Shown here piece by piece: positions 39,161 through 49,371 of a DNA stretch of 64,000 nucleotides. Origin of the DNA: an uncultured Desulfatiglans sp. (GTDB lineage Bacteria > Desulfobacterota > DSM-4660 > Desulfatiglandales > Desulfatiglandaceae); NCBI GenBank assembly GCA_900498135.1, contig LR026961.1, positions 4,313,552 to 4,377,551 on the forward strand, read 5' to 3'. Below the pieces are notes generated by a model. That model did no database searches and had not been told where the DNA came from. It saw only the letters and a program-made list of their open reading frames with translations. How positions within the stretch are numbered: the stretch's first letter is position 1; each line of letters opens with the position of its first letter. Both the position numbers and the translations under genes were made by a program.

Positions 39161-39911
39161 TTTCGGGCCGCCCCGTGAAAGCGGCGAGGAGCAGCGTCTG
39201 AACCGCATCCTCTCCCTGTCGGGCGTCACCTCCCGGCGGAAGGCCGACGAGATGATCGCCGAGGGGCGCGTCACGGTCAACGGCAAAATCGTAGCGGAGG
39301 CCGGGGCCAAGGCCCGCTGGGGGGTTGATCGCATCGCGGTCGACGGCCGGCCGGTCCCCGCGCCCGCCCCCCGCGTCTATCTCATGCTGAACAAGCCCTT
39401 TGCGGTCATGTGCTCCCTGCACGACCCCGAGGGCCGGCCGACCGTCGCGGAGTACCTTAAGGACCTGCCTGTCCGCGTCTACCCGGTCGGGCGCCTCGAC
39501 TTCGACACCCTCGGCCTTCTCCTCTTTACGAACGACGGCGAATGGGCCTTCCGCCTGAGCCATCCCCGCTACCGCGTGCCACGCACCTACAAGGCGACGC
39601 TGGCAGGGGAAATTGCGGAAGGCGACCTCGCCGCCCTCCGGCGAGGCGTCCCCCTGGAGGACGGCCCGAGCGGCCCTGCCACCGTCACCGTGGTCTCGCG
39701 CGGCCCTGAGCAGAGCGTCATCCGCATCACCATCACCCGAGGAAGGAACCGTCAGGTGCGCCGCATGATCGAAACCCTGGGCTACCGGATCATCCACCTC
39801 ATCCGCATCGGCTTCGGGCCCCTCGCGCTTGGCGATCTCAAGATCGGCCGCTACCGATTCCTCACCCCCTCCGAGGTGGAGGAACTGCGCAGCCTCGTGG
39901 GGCTTCCCTGA
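39039..39911 (+). CDS. rluB: Pseudouridine synthase, RluB/RsuA family
   Basis: The protein has an N-terminal S4 RNA-binding domain (RLNRILSLSGVTSRRKADEMI) and a catalytic domain with GRLDFDTLGLLLFTNDGE, whose first Asp is catalytic. It modifies 23S rRNA. The 290-residue form starts at ATG 39039 with a basic, low-complexity N-terminus overlapping scpB by 122 bp; GTG 39132 would shorten the overlap and keep the S4 domain. Which start is used is undecided. Confidence 0.88.
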   Translation: MMKKRPQKRRRPSMKPRRKPAPPGRSSPNRPVRTAAREIPDFGPPRESGEEQRLNRILSLSGVTSRRKADEMIAEGRVTVNGKIVAEAGAKARWGVDRIAVDGRPVPAPAPRVYLMLNKPFAVMCSLHDPEGRPTVAEYLKDLPVRVYPVGRLDFDTLGLLLFTNDGEWAFRLSHPRYRVPRTYKATLAGEIAEGDLAALRRGVPLEDGPSGPATVTVVSRGPEQSVIRITITRGRNRQVRRMIETLGYRIIHLIRIGFGPLALGDLKIGRYRFLTPSEVEELRSLVGLP

Positions 39912-39957
39912 GTGTTCCGCCCGTGCCCATCCAAAATCAGGAAGCGCCATTTTTTTG

Positions 39958-39986
39958 TTTACAAAGGGCGTTTCCTCTCCTATGAT
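39958..39986 (+). promoter_or_regulatory. Sigma-70 promoter of tRNA-Val(CAC)
   Basis: TTTACA (39958-39963) and TATGAT (39981-39986) are 17 bp apart, and the tRNA begins 12 bp after the -10 box. This is a near-ideal stable-RNA promoter. Confidence 0.8.
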
Positions 39987-39997
39987 GCGAATTTATC

Positions 39998-40072
39998 GGG
40001 CGGTTAACTCAGCGGGAGAGTGCCATCCTCACACGGTGGAAGTCGCAGGTTCAAATCCTGTACCGCCCACCA
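39998..40072 (+). tRNA. tRNA-Val (CAC)
   Basis: The sequence starts GGGCGGTTAACTCAGCGGG, has the anticodon loop CTCACAC (anticodon CAC) and the T-arm CAGGTTCAAATCCTG, and ends with an encoded CCA. All four arms pair. A variable accessory segment begins at its 3' end. Confidence 0.95.
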
Positions 40073-40160
40073 TCTCAATAAAACCGAACGTTGCAACATA
40101 TCGTGACGGTAACGTGTTAACTCCGAAGTAGCCTTAAAAAGGTGACTAAAGGGTGACTAG

Positions 40161-40196
40161 AAAGGCCGAGGAATGATCCCTCGGCCTTTTTCTTTT
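40161..40196 (+). terminator. Rho-independent terminator
   Basis: AAAGGCCGAGG (40161-40171) pairs with CCTCGGCCTTT (40179-40189) and is followed by a T-rich run. It would end tRNA-Val transcription about 100 bp downstream. Confidence 0.88.
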
Positions 40197-40288
40197 GGCT
40201 GCTTCAGATGAACGGTCTATCCGACACCCCTTTAAAAGTCAAGTTCCTCAAACCAGAAGCCAGGCCGACAGCCTCCCCTTATTTACGT

Positions 40289-40618
40289 TCACCAAGTTGA
40301 CGGCCGGCCGGCTGTGATGCCCGGAAAGATGCCGACATCGTTTGAGCTTTTCCGGCGCTTGATCAGTTCGAATTCGTGTGCGTCGCGGGCGAGGTCCATC
40401 AAATCTTCAGAAAACTCTTGACAATCTTCAACCGTTACATTTACGCCTTTACAGTTTGCAAGATTCATGAAGTGCGATCCGCCCGGCGGCAAGGCAGCGC
40501 GGTCGAAGCTGCGCCCAGCCTGTACGCCCCCCGGTAATGCGGCTGCGGGAGATTTCTCCCGTATTGGGGGATATTGAAGCATTGCCGCTTCATCGGTAAA
40601 TGACCATCTGCGCTTCAC
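40289..40618 (-). CDS. Hypothetical protein, doubtful
   Basis: The 109-residue frame starts at a GTG that overlaps the stop of the frame at 40615-40830 (GTGA). An internal ATG at 40468 would give a 59-residue peptide with the plausible amphipathic segment VEDCQEFSEDLMDLARDAHEF. No family recognised. It could be a remnant. Confidence 0.25.
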   Translation of the reverse strand: MKRRWSFTDEAAMLQYPPIREKSPAAALPGGVQAGRSFDRAALPPGGSHFMNLANCKGVNVTVEDCQEFSEDLMDLARDAHEFELIKRRKSSNDVGIFPGITAGRPSTW

Positions 40619-40830
40619 TGATTGCTCGTCACTGCGCCCAGGGCTTTCGCAGTTATTGCGTCCTTATAGTTTGGCCTGTGGAAAGCGGAGTTTTCATTTC
40701 GATTTCTACTACATGGGATTCGTAAGGTAATGATTCGGTTTCTGTAGTGAATACTTTGATCTACAGGGATTGCCGATTGATAGATGGCGCCTACTATACA
40801 CATCACCAAGGTCAATGCATTCAGTTTCAC
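40615..40830 (-). CDS. Hypothetical small protein with signal-like N-terminus, doubtful
   Basis: The 71-residue frame begins MKLNALTLVMCIVGAIYQS, which resembles a secretion signal, but has only a GTG start and no clear ribosome binding site. Its stop overlaps the next frame by 4 bp. It may be the broken start of an exported protein gene. Confidence 0.25.
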   Translation of the reverse strand: MKLNALTLVMCIVGAIYQSAIPVDQSIHYRNRIITLRIPCSRNRNENSAFHRPNYKDAITAKALGAVTSNQ

Positions 40831-40850
40831 AATAAAAAATTAATAATCAC

Positions 40851-42635
40851 ATGATATTTGTAGAAAACAATATCAAATTTGGAGATGTGAAAACGATGGA
40901 TTTAGAAAATTTTACCTTATATCCGGATCAGTGGTTTGACGTACCAGGTTGTGCTGATGTTAAAATATTTCCAGTTATACGCAAACCGTGTGTTATATGT
41001 TCTAATGCTTATATTTTAAAGACTGGCTTATATATTATTATAATTGATCCCGGCGCTCTTTTGGATCAAATCATATATATAAGGAATATTATTTCCAAAT
41101 TTTTGGTTTGGCAACACTTTCCTGTTTTTATTTTTCTAACTCATTGCCACATAGACCATTTTTTGGCGGCGCCGAATCTCGTTTACGGCGAACCCGCAGG
41201 TGAAATCATCTGCCATCGTGAAACAGCAAGGGCCATTGAGAACCGCGATGAGGACATCACGCTCGCAAACATGAATGCTACCGTTCTGCCCAAGTGCCAT
41301 GTCAAGGCCTGTTTCTTCGATGAGCCCGGCATAAGACAGCCAAATGCGTGTCACCCTTTGTACAGCCGGGACAGCTTTGTCGATCTTGGAACTGGGGGCC
41401 AGGTGCCCTGCCAGACCTTCCTAATTAGTGAAAGCGACAACATGCACATCTACCACACGCCGGGACATAGTCCGGACAGCGTCAGTTACCGGCTCGGCTC
41501 GCTCCTGTTTACGGGTGACCTCCATTTGGCTGCAACCCCGGGAATAGCAGGAAAATCGGGATGGGATAACGAAAAGTTGGCTGTTTCATTAGGAGCTATG
41601 TTGGAGGAGGGCCGTAAGACAGGCATATCTTTCGTCCTACCAGGGCACGGCAATATTATCGATTTTGAGCGGGCTGAGAAACTTTTTGCATCCGCGCGCA
41701 AAGATGCTTTGAGACTCAGTAACATCCCGCATTTCGATCGCCAACGATCCTTGTATATGTCTGAATATGCGATCATTCTTCTCGAAGAAGCGAGCAATAT
41801 ATTCTCCATCATTGGGGCTCGCCTAATGAAAATTTCATACTATCTCGAATTACTTGGGGAAGAGAAAAAATCTTTTGAAGTTTTGTGTGCGATCAATCTG
41901 AATGAAATAGAAGACATATTAATTGATTTCCAGAAATTTCTTGCAGAACTCAGGGGTAAACGCGGAGCACCTCTGATTTCAAAGGCAGTCCATTTTTCGA
42001 GAAAAGTTAGCAAAATATTTGATCCAGAAGACATTTCAGGCTTTTTTGATCCTTGTTTCATACGCAGAATCAAGAGTTTGCTTACTGACTTTATTAACGT
42101 AGTTTATGGAATTCAATTCAAGGATCAGGATAACACTTTTAACTTATACAATTCAGTAAAAGAAACTATATCTGAAATTATTAGCCAAAGCGTGCGAAAA
42201 ACAGATATGTATCACAAAATTCAAACTGATTCAGACTTTGTAAATCTTATTATAGATATGATTGCTTATACACCTCTATTATCAAAAATTGATATAAATT
42301 TAAATTCATCCGATGAGAAGTTGTACGTTACTGCTGACAAAAATATTTTCCAGGACATGCTCGTCGCTCTCCTTGAGCAGATTGCAGTTTCGGGATTGAC
42401 TCGGGTTCAGATGAACATTTATCGCAAGGATAAAGAAATCATTTTGTCGGTAGAAATTCTGGATGACGGCGAATCCTTCGTGCTCAGAGAGTCAAAATTG
42501 CTGTATTTGCAGCACTCGATGAAGCGCGCTGGTGGTATGTTCCATTCACACGCCGCCGATAAAAAGAATATCTACCACTATGTTTTTCCTTCACGCGTAC
42601 TGTGCTTTCCTTCAGAAAGCCCGCGGCGAGAATGA
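40851..42635 (+). CDS. Metallo-beta-lactamase fold protein fused to a degenerate histidine-kinase-like domain
   Basis: The first ~300 of 594 residues form an MBL hydrolase: THCHIDH (97-103), HTPGHSPDS, LFTGDLH and LPGHGN. A helical part follows, and the last ~130 residues resemble a HATPase_c fold (DKNIFQDMLVALLEQIAVSG as an N-box-like helix; LSVEILDDGESF as a D-x-G-like strand) but lack clear G1/G2 ATP-lid boxes and a phosphorylatable H-box. The combination suggests a sensor-like protein, but enzyme activity and signalling are both unproven. An alternative start is ATG 40896. AT-rich, behind tRNA-Val, so probably acquired. The 340 bp that follow hold no gene I can see. Confidence 0.65.
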   Translation: MIFVENNIKFGDVKTMDLENFTLYPDQWFDVPGCADVKIFPVIRKPCVICSNAYILKTGLYIIIIDPGALLDQIIYIRNIISKFLVWQHFPVFIFLTHCHIDHFLAAPNLVYGEPAGEIICHRETARAIENRDEDITLANMNATVLPKCHVKACFFDEPGIRQPNACHPLYSRDSFVDLGTGGQVPCQTFLISESDNMHIYHTPGHSPDSVSYRLGSLLFTGDLHLAATPGIAGKSGWDNEKLAVSLGAMLEEGRKTGISFVLPGHGNIIDFERAEKLFASARKDALRLSNIPHFDRQRSLYMSEYAIILLEEASNIFSIIGARLMKISYYLELLGEEKKSFEVLCAINLNEIEDILIDFQKFLAELRGKRGAPLISKAVHFSRKVSKIFDPEDISGFFDPCFIRRIKSLLTDFINVVYGIQFKDQDNTFNLYNSVKETISEIISQSVRKTDMYHKIQTDSDFVNLIIDMIAYTPLLSKIDINLNSSDEKLYVTADKNIFQDMLVALLEQIAVSGLTRVQMNIYRKDKEIILSVEILDDGESFVLRESKLLYLQHSMKRAGGMFHSHAADKKNIYHYVFPSRVLCFPSESPRRE

Positions 42636-42975
42636 AAGAACATCTAGGGGTAGTTGTCGGAAGCGCCGACTGGGATTATGTTCCGACATGGGCTTTAAGG
42701 CCAGCACAGAAGCAGCCTTTTAGAGGCTATCTTTTTGAGCATGAAATTTCGGTAGCAATGTGACTAAATTTCGCGAATGAACGGTGCCGACAAGCTGCCC
42801 CCCCACAGTCTTGAACCTTATCCAATATCATTTTAATACTTGGAAAACCAACAGGTTGCAGGCCTGGCAGCCTCATTTTTCATTGGACCATACGACAAAA
42901 GCGCCCCATAAATCAAACTTCGACCTCAAAAGATCACCTTACATGTTGACATATGGCACACAACGTACTTAAATA

Positions 42976-43151
42976 GTTTCCATCCGGAAATGGTCTTTTT
43001 GGCCAATCTCGGCGTCAATCTGCACGTTTGCTTGTGCGGCGACCTGCAGGTCGCCTCCGCACAAACGCTTGATTTCCTTGATATTGGCCAAAAATCCTCA
43101 TTTCCGGATTGGAAACTGAGTTCTACCGCGAAATCATTTCCGGATGGATAC
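42976..43151 (-). repeat. 176-bp palindromic repeat, intact copy D (inverted)
   Basis: Nearly identical to copy A but on the opposite strand, including the perfect central palindrome. It ends with GGATGGATAC 7 bp before the brnT ATG. The repeat's open frame continues in phase into brnT, so a longer apparent brnT frame begins inside the repeat at 42990. Confidence 0.92.
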
Positions 43152-43158
43152 GAAATAA

Positions 43159-43436
43159 TGTCTATGAAATATTATAAATGGAATCATGAAAAAAATGAAA
43201 AGCTTAAGGCCGAACGTGGCGTTAGTTTTGAACAGATAATCCTGCACATTGAACGTGGGGACCTTCTTGATGTAATTGAGCACCCGAATCAATCTAAATA
43301 TCCTAATCAGCAAATCCTGGTTGTCAAAATCAAAGACTATGTTTATCTGATTCCATTTGTTGGAGATGAAGAAGGTAAATTTTTAAAAACAATAATTCCT
43401 AGTCGAAAAGCGACTCGTGAGTATTTGGGAGGATGA
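43159..43436 (+). CDS. brnT: BrnT-family toxin (DUF497)
   Basis: From ATG 43159 (or 43165) the 92-residue protein begins MSMKYYKWNHEKNEKLKAERG and contains DVIEHPNQSKYPNQ and KTIIPSRKATREYL, the signature of one branch of the BrnT RNase toxins. BrnT inhibits translation until bound by BrnA. The antitoxin gene follows one base after the stop, the normal order. The upstream repeat probably provides its leader. Confidence 0.85.
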
Positions 43437-43437
43437 A

Positions 43438-43746
43438 ATGGCTAAAATAAAGCTTGATGAAGAAGAAAAGGATATTCTTGATAGTTATGAACGGGGAGAA
43501 TGGAAATCCGTAAAAAACGTTGATGAAGAAATCGAAAAACATAGAAGATACGCACGTCAGACTTTAAAAAAAGACAAAAGAATAAATATTCGGATCTCAT
43601 CTATGGTACTTGAAGAGCTTCAAACAAGAGCTGCTGAAAATGGCATGCCTTATCAAACATTAATATCCAGCATCCTGCATCGATTTGTAACAGGCAGGCT
43701 TATTGAAAAACAAAAGTCGAAAAATTCATTTGAGAATGACGTGTAA
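43438..43746 (+). CDS. brnA: BrnA-like ribbon-helix-helix antitoxin
   Basis: From ATG 43438 (GGGAGG upstream) the 102-residue protein has a helical N-terminus that should bind the toxin (DILDSYERGEWKSV) and a CopG-type ribbon-helix-helix motif (RINIRISSMVLEELQTRAAE). It should bind DNA and repress the pair. Starting one base after brnT, it is translationally linked to it. Confidence 0.85.
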   Translation: MAKIKLDEEEKDILDSYERGEWKSVKNVDEEIEKHRRYARQTLKKDKRINIRISSMVLEELQTRAAENGMPYQTLISSILHRFVTGRLIEKQKSKNSFENDV

Positions 43747-43852
43747 ACGCTGGCGTATTTTCACGCATCTCAATTCTGCGTTATGGAATTTTCATGATTT
43801 AGTATAAGTGTGCCAGCATAAAAGGAGATAAGAATATTGGTTGGATACCGTT

Positions 43853-43999
43853 TCATTTGCAGATTTCATATGGGGTTATTCGATTAATTTGTTTATGGCG
43901 CTTCACTGAAATAATCTTCTTGCCATTACTGTAGATGGAGTGGTTGGCTCCTTCTCTGAGAAGGAGGTGTCCTACTAAATCACGACGCTTGACTGACAC
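43853..43999 (-). pseudogene. Degenerate HicA toxin
   Basis: Reading from GTG 43999 gives 48 residues starting VSVKRRDLVGHLLLREG, then NHSIYSNG and SVKRHKQINRITPYEICK before a stop. This matches HicA (KRRDLxxHL, REGxNHSIY with the catalytic His, PRHxEI, KIC) but lacks about 7 residues after HL and the C-terminal LGIP. It overlaps the hicB stop by 20 bp, as real hicBA pairs do. Probably inactive; a minimal toxin cannot be excluded. Confidence 0.55.
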
Positions 44000-44216
44000 T
44001 TTGAATCTCTACCGGGAGTTGTTCAATGAGTGCATTTCCGAGAGGGATCTCCTTACCAAGCTGCTGGTATGGGAGAACCATTTCATGCAATGCATACCGG
44101 AGCATTTCACGGCAATTTTCAAGGTCATTACCTTCGGTAACAACCTCAGGCCACTCCACCAGTTGACCCATGTATCCTGAACTTATTTTAGCATATTCTC
44201 TTCTAATTCTTGGCAA
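43980..44216 (-). CDS. hicB: HicB-family antitoxin
   Basis: The 78-residue protein begins at TTG 44216 and contains SSGYMGQLVEWPEVVTEG and ENCREMLRYALHEMVLPYQQLGKEIP, the HicB partial RNase H-like fold. No DNA-binding tail is present, as in short HicB forms. It precedes and overlaps the degenerate hicA. HicB neutralises HicA, so here it may be an orphan. Confidence 0.7.
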   Translation of the reverse strand: MPRIRREYAKISSGYMGQLVEWPEVVTEGNDLENCREMLRYALHEMVLPYQQLGKEIPLGNALIEQLPVEIQSVSQAS

Positions 44217-44430
44217 ACAGTTGAATTAAGCACTATCTCTTTGTCATGGGCTTATCAATTTGGAAATGAAACCACCCAAAATATCATTTTATCATTATAT
44301 GTCAGTTGGTTAATCAATAAGCGAGCTTATCCCATCTGAAAACTCGGTCGGAATTTACCGGGATGCATAAAACTTCGTTCTTACCGAGGCAGCGTCATCT
44401 TACAGAAGAGCCAGAGTTGACAAATCCCTA

Positions 44431-44457
44431 GCTCTTTACCAGGTTTTGGTAAAGAGC
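44431..44457. other. Perfect hairpin
   Basis: GCTCTTTACCA and TGGTAAAGAGC pair over 11 bp around a GGTTT loop. No gene ends directly beside it and no T-run follows. It lies between hicB and the VapC remnant in a gene-poor stretch. Confidence 0.5.
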
Positions 44458-44572
44458 GATTTATGTCCGTACAATACCTATCGATAACCCCTCCGCGAAC
44501 CCCGCCAGCACCTGCCGCAGCTTCGTCTCGTCGAACAGCGGCTCCTATGACGGGGGCAATGTTTTCAGTGCA

Positions 44573-44677
44573 AAAGTGCCTTTCCATAGGGGCGAAATCA
44601 CGATCATCGTGGAGCAAAGTCAGCCCCTCGATAATGCAAAAAATTGCTATCATCACTTCAATTGTTTTCCGATGCCA
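44573..44677 (-). pseudogene. C-terminal remnant of a VapC-like PIN-domain toxin
   Basis: The minus strand reads KTIEVMIAIFCIIEGLTLLH then DDRDFAPMERHF, the conserved C-terminal half of VapC toxins (GLTLLHDDRDF with acidic active-site residues). An in-frame stop lies just upstream and the rest of the PIN domain is missing. No VapB is seen. The 230 bp to the next gene hold nothing clear. Confidence 0.55.
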
Positions 44678-44909
44678 TTAAAATCCTTCACTGAACAAAC
44701 TCAAGAAGCGATCCCAACCGTCGTTTCCTGCAGCCAGGCTCGAATAATCAACCCTTTCCGCTGCGGGTCGTCCGAGGAAGATCTGGCCGTGCACGGTCGA
44801 GGTAGAAGTCCGTGCGCAAAGATGCTATCCTTCAAAGAATTCCCTTCGTGGAGAATCTGCGGCGGGATCGTATTCTTCCCCTCTTACGGCGTTTTCAGGG
44901 AGGCCGCCG

Positions 44910-47660
44910 GTGAGTATCTTCAATCTCGAAAAGATCTTCATGCCATCGAGTGTGGCGGTGATCGGGGCAAGCGGAAAGTCCGGCTCCATCGGTGAAGTGC
45001 TGCTGCGAAACCTGCTCGCGACGCCCTTCGAAGGCCCGGTTTTTCCCGTCAACCCGAAATACGACCACCTGATGGGGCTCGAATGCCGCCCCGCTCTCCG
45101 GGATGTCCGGCAGCCGGTGGATCTTGCGGTCATCGCCGTGCCTGCCGACCAGGTTCCGGAGGTCCTCGACGAATGCGCCGAAGCAGGCGTGGGAGGGGCC
45201 ATCATCATCTCGGCAGCGGGGAAGGAGGCCGGCAAAGACGGGCGATCCCTCGAAAACGCCATCCGGGAGCATGCGGATGCCGCCGGGGTCCGGATCATCG
45301 GCCCGAACTGCATGGGGGTGGTGAGCACACCGGCAAAGCTCAACGCCACCTTTGCCGAACGGGAGCACCTGAGCGGCGGGCTAGCCTTCATCTCCCAGAG
45401 CGGCGCCATGAGTGCCGCCATCCTGGATCTTTCCGCCCGAGAGAGGATCGGCTTCCGCTATTTTGTCAGCCTCGGCTCCGTCCTGGATGTCGATGTCGGG
45501 GATCTGATCGACTACCTGGGAAACGACCCGGGTGTCAGTGCCATTGTCCTATACGCCGAGACGCTCAGTTCCCTGCGCAAGTTCATGAGCGCAGCGCGCG
45601 CGGTTTCGCGCGTCAAGCCGATCGTCGTGCTGAAATCCGGCCGTTCGGCGAACGACTTGAACGGCGCGGGCGGTCCGGGGAGCCGCCTGCTTGCCGAAGA
45701 GAGCGCCGTCTACGACGCAGCCTTCAAGCGCGCCGGCATGCTCCGCGTCAAGACGATGGACGAACTGTTCGACTGCGCCGAGCTTTTCGCCAAACAGCAC
45801 AACCCGCGGGGGAACCGGCTCTGCATCCTGATGAACGGGGACGGCCCCGGCGTCATGGCGGTGGACGCCCTCGCCTCCTACGGCCTCAAACCGGCCGCCC
45901 TCGAACCGGACACACTGGAGGCGCTCGACAGGCTGCTCCCGCCGATATGGAGCAGGCGCAACCCGATCGACCTCCTGGGGGACGCCACCCCCGAGCGGTG
46001 GAAAGAGGCAACGAGGATCTGCCTCTCGGCCAGGGAGCTGGATGCCCTGATGCCGGTCTACGTCCCCCACGTGCACAACCCCGCCGCCGATGTGGCTGAA
46101 GCCCTCGTCACCGCCTTCGAGGAAAAGGGGGTGGGCATTCCGCTTTTTTCCGTCTGGATGGGCGGCGAAGGCGCCGACCCCGGCCGGGAGGCCATGAACC
46201 GCTCGGCCTTCCCCACCTACGATTCCCCGGAGCGGGCCGTCGCGGCCTTCACCTATGCCCTTTCCTACGCGCGCAACCTGGAGATGTTGCAGGAGATCCC
46301 TCCGAAGTTCAACCGGGCGCTCGACTTCGATCCTGCCGCCGTCAGGGCCGTAGTCCAGGAGGTCCTGAAAAAAGGAGGCGGGGCGCTCGATGCAGCCCAG
46401 TCGAAAACGGTCCTCGAGGCCTACGGGATCCCGGTCAATCCCGCCGAAATCGCCCGCGGCGCCGACGAAGCGGCCCTGATCGCATCGAGGCTCGGCTTCC
46501 CCTCGGCGATGAAGGTCGCCTCGCCTGACATCCCGCAAAAGTCCGATGCCGGCGGAGTCGAGTTGAACCTGAGGACCCCCGGCGAAGTGCGCGAAGCCTA
46601 TGAACAAATCGTCTCGTCAGCCCGCGCCGCCCACCCCGATGCCCGCATCGACGGCGTGACCGTTCAGCCGATGCTCTGCGGCCGGATGCACGAACTGCTC
46701 ATCGGCTCGAAGACGGTCCCCGGTTTCGGCCCGGTGATCCTTTTCGGCGCGGGCGGTCTTCTCGCCGAGCTCTACGAGGATTATTCTCTCGCGCTGCCGC
46801 CCCTGAGCCGCCTTCTGGCAAGACGCCTGATGGAGGAGACAAGGATCTACCGCGTTTTGCAGGGCCGCGGCCGCACCCCTCCCGTGGACCTCGAATTCCT
46901 GGAGGAGCTGTTGATCAGGCTCGCGCAGCTCGTCACGGATTTCCCGGAGATATCCGAACTGGTCGTCAATCCGTTCATGATCGGGGTCCGCGGCGGCCTG
47001 GCGGTGGACGTCCACCTTTTCGTCACGCCCGCGGTCCGGCCCTCTCCTGAGCACCTGGTCATCAGCCCCTATCCGAATCAGTACGAAGGCTTGATCTCCG
47101 TCAAAGGCGAAAAGCGGATCTTCGTCCGCCCCATCAAGCCGGAGGATGCACCGCTTTTGACCGGGCTCTTCTCGGCGCTTTCCCCCCTCAGCATCTATTT
47201 CCGGTTCTTCAGCCCGTTGAAGTCCCTTTCGACCAAGATGCTGGCCCGGTTGAGCCAGATCGATTACGACCGGGAAATGGCCTTGGTGGCCTTCGATCCG
47301 GATGAGGAAGAGGAAAAGGTCCTGGCCGTGGTCCGCTACATGGCCGTTCCGCGGAAGGAGGAGGCGAATTTCGCCGTGGCGGTCGGAAGCCCCTGGCAGG
47401 GTCTGGGGATCGGCGCCGCCCTGATGGAGCGGCTGTTCGCCATTGCGCGGGAAAGAGGCATCAAGAAGATCACCGGCGAGGTGCTCGCGGAAAATCGCCA
47501 GATGCTGGGGCTTGCGCGTCGGTTCGGCTTCGAGACCAGCAGGACGGCCGAAAACGGGCAGTACCTCATCACCCTGGATTTGAGCCGTGAGGCCGGCGCG
47601 GATGCGGCCGAAGGGATGCAGAGCCTGCAGGGCGAAGACACGGCCCCCGGCAAGACTTGA
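44910..47660 (+). CDS. Acyl-CoA synthetase (ADP-forming), alpha-beta fusion with GNAT acetyltransferase
   Basis: The 916-residue protein has a CoA-binding Rossmann domain (SSVAVIGASGKSGSIG), a succinyl-CoA-ligase-like domain (FISQSGAMSAAIL; GPNCMGVV with a conserved Asn-Cys), an ATP-grasp domain (about 490-720; VTVQPMLCGRMHELLIG) and a C-terminal GNAT domain (GSPWQGLGIGAALMERLF). The synthetase modules resemble NDP-forming acetate-CoA ligases; the fusion resembles Pat protein acetyltransferases. GTG 44910 has GGGAGG upstream. Confidence 0.88.
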   Translation: MSIFNLEKIFMPSSVAVIGASGKSGSIGEVLLRNLLATPFEGPVFPVNPKYDHLMGLECRPALRDVRQPVDLAVIAVPADQVPEVLDECAEAGVGGAIIISAAGKEAGKDGRSLENAIREHADAAGVRIIGPNCMGVVSTPAKLNATFAEREHLSGGLAFISQSGAMSAAILDLSARERIGFRYFVSLGSVLDVDVGDLIDYLGNDPGVSAIVLYAETLSSLRKFMSAARAVSRVKPIVVLKSGRSANDLNGAGGPGSRLLAEESAVYDAAFKRAGMLRVKTMDELFDCAELFAKQHNPRGNRLCILMNGDGPGVMAVDALASYGLKPAALEPDTLEALDRLLPPIWSRRNPIDLLGDATPERWKEATRICLSARELDALMPVYVPHVHNPAADVAEALVTAFEEKGVGIPLFSVWMGGEGADPGREAMNRSAFPTYDSPERAVAAFTYALSYARNLEMLQEIPPKFNRALDFDPAAVRAVVQEVLKKGGGALDAAQSKTVLEAYGIPVNPAEIARGADEAALIASRLGFPSAMKVASPDIPQKSDAGGVELNLRTPGEVREAYEQIVSSARAAHPDARIDGVTVQPMLCGRMHELLIGSKTVPGFGPVILFGAGGLLAELYEDYSLALPPLSRLLARRLMEETRIYRVLQGRGRTPPVDLEFLEELLIRLAQLVTDFPEISELVVNPFMIGVRGGLAVDVHLFVTPAVRPSPEHLVISPYPNQYEGLISVKGEKRIFVRPIKPEDAPLLTGLFSALSPLSIYFRFFSPLKSLSTKMLARLSQIDYDREMALVAFDPDEEEEKVLAVVRYMAVPRKEEANFAVAVGSPWQGLGIGAALMERLFAIARERGIKKITGEVLAENRQMLGLARRFGFETSRTAENGQYLITLDLSREAGADAAEGMQSLQGEDTAPGKT

Positions 47661-48873: not shown

Positions 48874-49371
48874 TCATAAAGACAATTTCCTTAGCGCCTC
48901 CCAGAATTCCCGATCCTTATCCTGCCAATTTGGTCCAAACTTATCACCACAGAAATTGGACATCTTTTCATACCAATGCCACCAATAGTCCTTACCTTTT
49001 TCCTTTGCCTCTAACAGATCCGACAGATGTTCGATGATATTTTTCATTTCCTCTTTTGGTAAAAAAGAAGCAGCGCCCTCCTGCCGAGCTTTTACAATAT
49101 TGTCAGTGCTTAACGCATGCGCTGTAAGCATCAGAGAAATAATATTTTTCTTTCGAGCAATTTCCAACAACTCATATCCGTTAACACCCATTATATCTAG
49201 AATTGCAATATCAAAATGTTGATTTTCAAGAAGTAATTTTGCTTCTTCAAATGTGGAAGCTCTACTCAAACTTGCCATATCCAATTCTTCCTGAAGTGCG
49301 TCAAGCACATCAGATTCATCATCAACCAAGAGAATCCTTTTCCCTTGAAGCAAATTTTTTCCCATCATCAT
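48874..49371 (-). CDS. Single-domain response regulator
   Basis: The 165-residue protein has a receiver domain: acidic pair DDES, phospho-acceptor Asp in ILDIMG, switch Thr in LTAHA and Lys in LPKEE. The extra ~45-residue tail is rich in Trp and Lys (DYWWHWYEKM) with no DNA-binding motif. A partner kinase is not in the window, except possibly the degenerate kinase-like fusion at 40851. It probably acts by protein contact. Confidence 0.85.
   Translation of the reverse strand: MMMGKNLLQGKRILLVDDESDVLDALQEELDMASLSRASTFEEAKLLLENQHFDIAILDIMGVNGYELLEIARKKNIISLMLTAHALSTDNIVKARQEGAASFLPKEEMKNIIEHLSDLLEAKEKGKDYWWHWYEKMSNFCGDKFGPNWQDKDREFWEALRKLSL

Follow-up and report, generated by a model that had tools for sequence, protein, structure and literature searches.

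The gene at 40851..42635 of the window, the 64,000-nucleotide stretch of DNA from an uncultured Desulfatiglans sp. analyzed here, specifies a two-part protein. A metallo-beta-lactamase (MBL) domain is followed by a C-terminal half (CT) that is predicted to fold like a histidine kinase but no longer has the catalytic motifs. Gene neighborhoods and in-frame fusions link this MBL-CT family to partner switching in archaea. The best reading of these findings, to which we assign a probability of roughly 0.55, is that the MBL domain is coupled to a partner switch through a dead kinase that docks a STAS protein. Partner switching is best known for the control of sigma factors, and archaea possess RsbU-, RsbV- and RsbW-like proteins. 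The component parts of MBL-CT are of known kinds; their combination corresponds to no characterized family in Pfam, NCBIfam, PADLOC or the open-licence literature searched, as the initial annotation of this DNA had supposed.

Gene and Genomic Context

The open reading frame is present at its given place on the + strand and encodes 594 residues. Its real start is probably Met16 at 40896, because the first 16-20 residues are missing in both aligned relatives of the window protein and AlphaFold2 gives a pLDDT below 50 over residues 1-16. The gene is the single gene of a 2.5-kb segment, 40205-42685, that is missing in the congener G001 (G and L numbers denote our genomes and loci). GC content of the segment with the MBL-CT gene is low, at 0.46 and 0.39 versus about 0.6. 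A second, separate stretch missing in G001, 42791-44506, holds a BrnT/BrnA-like pair, and both stretches sit beside tRNA-Val. The MBL-CT gene is accessory, either a gain in the window genome or a loss in G001.

Several other features of this region were recorded. Positions 39998-44670, directly after the tRNA-Val gene, form a low-GC variable stretch in which, compared with G001, two accessory inserts lie apart from each other. Pfam identifies the pair at 42990-43746 as a BrnT/BrnA-like toxin-antitoxin pair, absent at the same place in the congener. No convincing tRNA-linked attachment repeats were found in 39900-45000. The protein encoded at 44910-47660 has CoA-binding, succinyl-CoA ligase-like, ATP-grasp and acetyltransferase domains (Pfam), and G001 has a 94% identical copy of it. 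A viral origin of the MBL-CT gene was considered and rejected, as a scan of viral contigs with the window protein gave two pattern matches and none confirmed. A defence system was likewise rejected: PADLOC had no match for the window protein, one linked STAS protein and one linked RsbW protein.

Metallo-Beta-Lactamase Domain

The MBL domain covers about residues 27-295 (40929..41735, + strand), as delimited by Pfam Lactamase_B (residues 51-253), the AlphaFold2 model and Foldseek. The Pfam match of the window protein has an E-value of 3.2e-10 and 40.7 bits against a curated cut-off of 22.7, and Lactamase_B was matched in all 49 family members scanned (E<=0.1). Seven residues, which we take to be GloB-type metal ligands, are invariant in every row of the 49-row alignment. 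These are H98, H100, D102 and H103 of the HCHIDH motif (41142..41159), H206 in HTPGHSPD (41466..41468), D223 in TGDLH (41517..41519) and H266 in PGHG (41646..41648), all on the + strand. The complete MBL active site claimed by the initial annotation is thus borne out by the Pfam match and the seven invariant ligands.

Foldseek with the full-length model gave GloB (7l0b) and BLEG-1 (7ev5) as best matches. The fold and the seven-ligand site are common to these hydrolases and the window family, whereas the latter carries a C-terminal pseudo-kinase in place of the substrate domain. NCBIfam returned for the window protein only MBL matches below cut-off, together with a faint match to the KdpD kinase over residues 474-552 (E 0.084). 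MBL sensors of the ODP type occur fused to signaling proteins. The idea of an MBL fold acting as a sensor ahead of a signaling module is common to these proteins and the window family, yet Pfam ODP matches the family weakly, in 5 of 49 members with a best E-value of 0.017. We infer that the MBL part is a metallohydrolase or a metal sensor. The protein might sense or make a small signal, as the initial annotation had suggested.

C-Terminal Half

Pfam has no match above cut-off to the CT of the window protein, and the 19 Pfam families tallied at E<=0.1 over 49 members include no HATPase_c, HisKA or HATPase_c_2. AlphaFold2 with 49 rows reached a pLDDT of 87.4 and a pTM of 0.83 for the full-length protein. 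Since full-length Foldseek results were dominated by MBL matches, the CT was also predicted and searched alone (pLDDT 85.0, pTM 0.82). The model begins with long helices at 297-419, followed by the element order of a GHKL domain: strand 428-431, helix 432-445, an extra helical stretch at 450-479, strands 481-486 and 492-495, helix 497-513, strands 518-526 and 529-536, helix 547-560, and strands 563-569 and 572-580. We assign residues 297-419 (41739..42107, + strand) to a helical DHp-like region, based on the AlphaFold2 helices and a VIA-align superposition on HK853, and residues 425-584 (42123..42602, + strand) to a degenerate GHKL/CA domain without ATP lid, based on AlphaFold2 topology and a superposition on the CA domain of ThkA.

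Comparison with known structures agrees with this assignment. At E<=0.001, Foldseek with the CT returned 240 matches in the PDB, the strongest with an E-value of 2.6e-6; the best 50 are histidine-kinase cores. Among the matches listed, TM-scores of the whole CT to histidine kinases are modest (TMq 0.32-0.39); the target-side Foldseek TM-score to the PhoQ catalytic domain is 0.66-0.70. VIA-align superimposed the CT on ThkA CA with Z 15.3 and an rmsd of 3.0 over 128 aligned residues (model 130-289), and on HK853 with Z 14.6 and an rmsd of 5.7 over 197 residues (model 1-288), the helical part being loose. Alignment of profiles by hhalign against 15 histidine-kinase sequences gave P 2e-6 and a score of 49.8, again with the helical part poorly aligned; among the controls, the highest of 50 column shuffles scored 17.1 and the reversed profile 25.5. 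The MBL, PP2C, STAS and RsbW profiles gave no match to the CT in hhalign (scores 14-20), with a probability of 1.4 for RsbW. A DHp-CA/GHKL histidine-kinase fold is well supported for the CT by these models. The histidine-kinase-like ATPase fold of the initial annotation stands on the agreement of AlphaFold2, Foldseek and VIA-align, and the question it had raised, whether the C-terminal half adopts a GHKL fold, was answered by structure prediction and fold search with a GHKL fold.

The sensor kinase cores of HK853, ThkA, WalK and CpxA have this DHp-CA fold in common with the CT, which differs from them in having no H-box histidine, N-box asparagine pair, G-boxes or ATP lid, and in carrying the extra helices 450-479 inside the CA domain. 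Position 313, the likely H-box site, is E in 38, Q in 10 and H in one of the 49 sequences, and the H-box column of the histidine-kinase comparison set holds H in 14 of 15; the highest histidine column anywhere in the CT is position 330, with 20 of 49. In the degenerate N-box helix (residues 502-510; 42354..42380, + strand), placed by column counts with the register taken from hhalign, the two asparagine sites are replaced, 506 being mostly Y, D or A and 510 mostly D, R or Q in the 49 rows. Where the G-boxes and the lid would lie, the sequence is short and variable, and G1 and G2 are absent; in the model, strand 529-536 runs into helix 547-560 with no lid between them. The missing H-box and ATP lid had already been suspected from the sequence of the window, and both observations held in the alignment and the model.

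Other positions of the CT are strongly conserved. R324 is invariant (49/49), E337, D413, R406 and G420 are each present in 48 of 49, and E509 is nearly invariant. D502 lies four residues before the first N-box asparagine site; 44 sequences have D there and three have E, which makes the site acidic in 47 of 49. At this minus-4 site, in a register given by sequence alignment only, all 30 RsbW-like proteins of the loci have E, versus an acidic residue in 1 of 15 histidine kinases. We take Glu49 of RsbW to be the residue at the minus-4 site before the N-box asparagine. As described for the crystal structure of RsbV-RsbW (PMC7340262), Glu49 of RsbW contacts Ser56 of RsbV, the serine that is phosphorylated.

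The alignment and models thus give good support to the CT being a pseudo-histidine kinase, with catalytic motifs lost in the window protein and its relatives. Having neither a phospho-accepting histidine nor ATP-binding motifs, it is expected to be incapable of autophosphorylation and of serving a receiver. DivL and RetS are atypical histidine kinases, and their structures (4q20, 7n0e) are among the structural matches of the CT. Like the CT they are kinase shells with altered catalytic residues, but in the CT the entire set of ATP-site motifs is lost, and the CT occurs in fusion with MBL or with 5TMR membrane domains and in linkage with STAS.

Distribution of the Family

Among the genomes of 99 relatives, the full-length protein is present in two besides its own, with 50% and 42% identity (G072 and G003), and the congener G001 has no MBL-CT gene. 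When 395 genomes of the phylum were searched with a profile, eight matches reached E<=1e-12; seven, own genome included, span the CT, and the match in G284 covers the MBL part only. The window copy therefore belongs to a sparse Desulfobacterota branch (7/395 genomes, own included). In the CT tree it falls in the Desulfobacterota clade (starred), nearest to G179 and G301, both from another family, and this bacterial clade retains the conserved CT positions.

A scan of genome contigs extended the search, and the best 80 of 119 confirmed loci were examined. Full-length loci among the matches listed come mainly from Methanoregula, Methanolinea, Methanoculleus, Methanothrix and other methanogens, with further ones in Desulfobacterota, a Lentisphaerae bin and a Thiosymbion bin. 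We aligned 54 distinct proteins of at least 520 residues and used 49 of them further, leaving out L025, L042, L046, L060 and L067 (cut frames or frames of other length). In the class of G463, a genome with a Methanoregula locus, the CT occurs in 118 of 232 genomes. MBL-CT is, as judged from these comparisons of sequence, a real family, neither chance nor an artefact of the reading frame, because the same architecture recurs in bacteria and archaea.

Archaeal Gene Neighborhoods

In archaea the MBL-CT gene adjoins a gene for an RsbV-like STAS protein, often overlapping the STAS end by 10 to 61 bases. Also present in these loci are a divergent SpoIIE phosphatase with a 5TM-5TMR_LYT sensor and an RsbW-like HATPase_c_2 kinase. 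Counts were made on 34 of 40 distinct archaeal-titled loci, those with at least 3 kb upstream, with identical CT copies represented once, by the one with the longest flank. At least one of STAS, RsbW-like kinase and PP2C phosphatase lies within 3 kb or is fused in 28 of the 34. Within 3 kb, and with the fused L046 excluded, STAS was found in 24, RsbW in 19 and PP2C in 13 loci; the STAS gene is at most 300 bp away, overlapping or fused in 22 of 34. The six loci without partner-switch genes within 3 kb (L034, L036, L039, L042, L043 and L065) belong to three Methanoculleus, two Methanothrix and one unclassified genome, and in the Methanoculleus loci L034, L036 and L039 a STAS gene lies 3.1-4.7 kb off. 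Thirty further CT loci from the class of G463, partly from the same genomes as the 34, have an adjoining STAS gene in 29 cases, the one exception beginning at a contig edge.

Such proximity of STAS is not expected by chance, since seven archaeal genomes have two to six STAS matches each in 2.5-3.9 Mb. The serine motif SS(G/A/S)G is present in 76 of 81 distinct STAS reading frames, some of which do not adjoin MBL-CT. The STAS gene is upstream of MBL-CT in some clades and downstream in others. As side observations, L138 (9949-11253) and L024 (5779-7086) encode proteins of about 435 residues with an N-terminal STAS domain beside switch genes; in the one that was scanned, Pfam at E<=0.01 left the other ~320 residues unmatched.

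Fusions tie the CT to STAS more directly. MBL, CT and STAS are in a single frame of 642-696 residues in five genomes, G607, G608, G613, G614 and G619, the start of the G619 frame being cut by a contig edge. These fusions come from 11 regions mostly chosen for long frames, and L046 is the same contig as that of G613. In four genomes (G661, G663, G667 and G670) the CT occurs without MBL as the C-terminal end of a membrane protein of 1147-1167 residues, encoded at L134 1375-4875, L136 1433-4873, L137 2685-6140 and L170 891-4346. For the two of these that were scanned (L134 and L136), the only Pfam match at E<=0.01 was 5TM-5TMR_LYT, and a symporter as the N-terminal part was rejected on this result. 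The STAS fusions and the receptor-end CT make the CT a portable module in transmitter position, tied to STAS.

Taken at the level of gene order and fusion, these loci establish a link between the MBL-CT family and partner switching in archaea. The proteins linked to archaeal MBL-CT, with STAS (PF01740), HATPase_c_2 (PF13581) and SpoIIE PP2C (PF07228) domains, are those of the RsbU-RsbV-RsbW and SpoIIE-SpoIIAA-SpoIIAB systems. The archaeal loci differ from these in that an MBL-pseudokinase is in fourth place and no sigma factor was seen, nor would one be expected in archaea, and in that bacterial MBL-CT copies are unlinked.

Bacterial Copies

The window copy has no STAS, RsbW-like or PP2C gene within 3 kb, and among 15 bacterial copies, four of them with short flanks, one (not the window copy) has any partner-switch gene within that distance. 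The variable neighbors of bacterial MBL-CT genes, together with the position of the window gene alone in its 2.5-kb segment absent from G001, raise the possibility that the bacterial branch, the window gene included, has left the partner switch for another use, for example as a free-standing MBL sensor. We consider this somewhat unlikely, as the clade has kept the conserved CT positions and an adjacent STAS-RsbW pair is found elsewhere in 7 of 8 bacterial carriers examined (L144-L150). This pair says little by itself, because the count covers carriers alone; the exception, G099, has no STAS beside RsbW. In the own genome there are six STAS matches. One of these adjoins an RsbW-like gene (L144 9280-10197); two SpoIIE proteins are encoded elsewhere. 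The RsbV-like protein of this genome maps to G000:C1:877309-877620. On the preferred reading, with a dead kinase coupling MBL to a switch, bacterial copies may work in the same way as archaeal ones; the window protein would be a bacterial member without neighboring switch genes, and its candidate partners would be the RsbV-RsbW pair elsewhere in the genome.

Proposed Mechanism and Alternatives

We propose that the CT most likely provides a docking site for a STAS protein of the RsbV type, competing with a serine kinase of the RsbW type. Phosphorylation of the STAS serine would be governed by RsbW and a PP2C phosphatase of the RsbU type, and in one of its states the STAS protein would bind the CT, with D502 possibly playing a role, and so be coupled to the MBL domain, which may be enzymatically active. 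To our knowledge archaea, methanogens included, have no sigma factors. In methanogens MBL-CT would either stand in for the sigma factor as target or supply the switch with an input signal. As the CT has no match to the RsbW profile, the argument for RsbW-like docking is built from one helix and gene linkage.

A rival account would make the protein an ordinary MBL hydrolase in which the dead kinase core is a dimerization scaffold or a regulatory domain for a small ligand, and the STAS linkage a matter of operon history. Invariant metal ligands in all 49 sequences fit such a protein, as does the retention of both halves, and not of the neighbors, in bacterial copies. It is less easily reconciled with in-frame STAS fusion in five genomes, with a STAS gene that lies on different sides of MBL-CT in different clades, and with a CT that occurs also without MBL, and we regard it as unlikely. 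It appears quite improbable that the CT is still active as a protein kinase through an unorthodox site and, in the manner of RsbW or RsbT, phosphorylates the serine of STAS. Conservation of an acidic side chain at the site of the RsbW Glu (47 of 49), the invariant R324 and the nearly invariant E337, D413 and E509 could be read in this way, but the main residues counted at both N-box sites do not include asparagine, G1 and G2 are missing and the lid is deleted, and a motif-bearing RsbW-like kinase is usually near (within 3 kb in 19/34).

The initial annotation had named the lone receiver at 48874-49371 as a possible partner. Pfam confirms a Response_reg domain, but the gene is on the other strand, 6.2 kb from the MBL-CT gene with several unrelated genes between, and no relatives of it were found within 6 kb of an MBL-CT gene in other loci with a weak single-sequence model. 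We rejected it as a partner because its family is rich in paralogues: at E<=1e-15 there are 19 matches in G001, which is without the MBL-CT gene, and 19 in G072, and none in the carriers G099 and G150. A degenerate two-component sensor signaling to such a receiver is very improbable: in its favor are the shared window and the Response_reg domain, and against it are this distribution and the lack of a conserved histidine at position 313. As a separate observation, the receiver has a conserved C-terminal tail, and its family is strongly expanded. An RsbV-type STAS protein is the stronger partner lead.

Biological Significance

More tentatively, and at somewhat less than even odds in our estimate, this unnamed family of dead histidine kinases could be the STAS-binding partner in archaeal switches, replacing the sigma factor and coupling a metallohydrolase or a membrane receptor, with the module carried into some Desulfobacterota. 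MBL-CT is also a natural example of a histidine-kinase core that has lost phosphotransfer and is nevertheless retained in both bacteria and archaea. For the question of what sigma-less archaeal switches act upon, an MBL-pseudokinase fused to or adjoining STAS offers a concrete and testable answer in methanogens. Relatives are common in some methanogens, where MBL-CT may be an unrecognized signaling partner.
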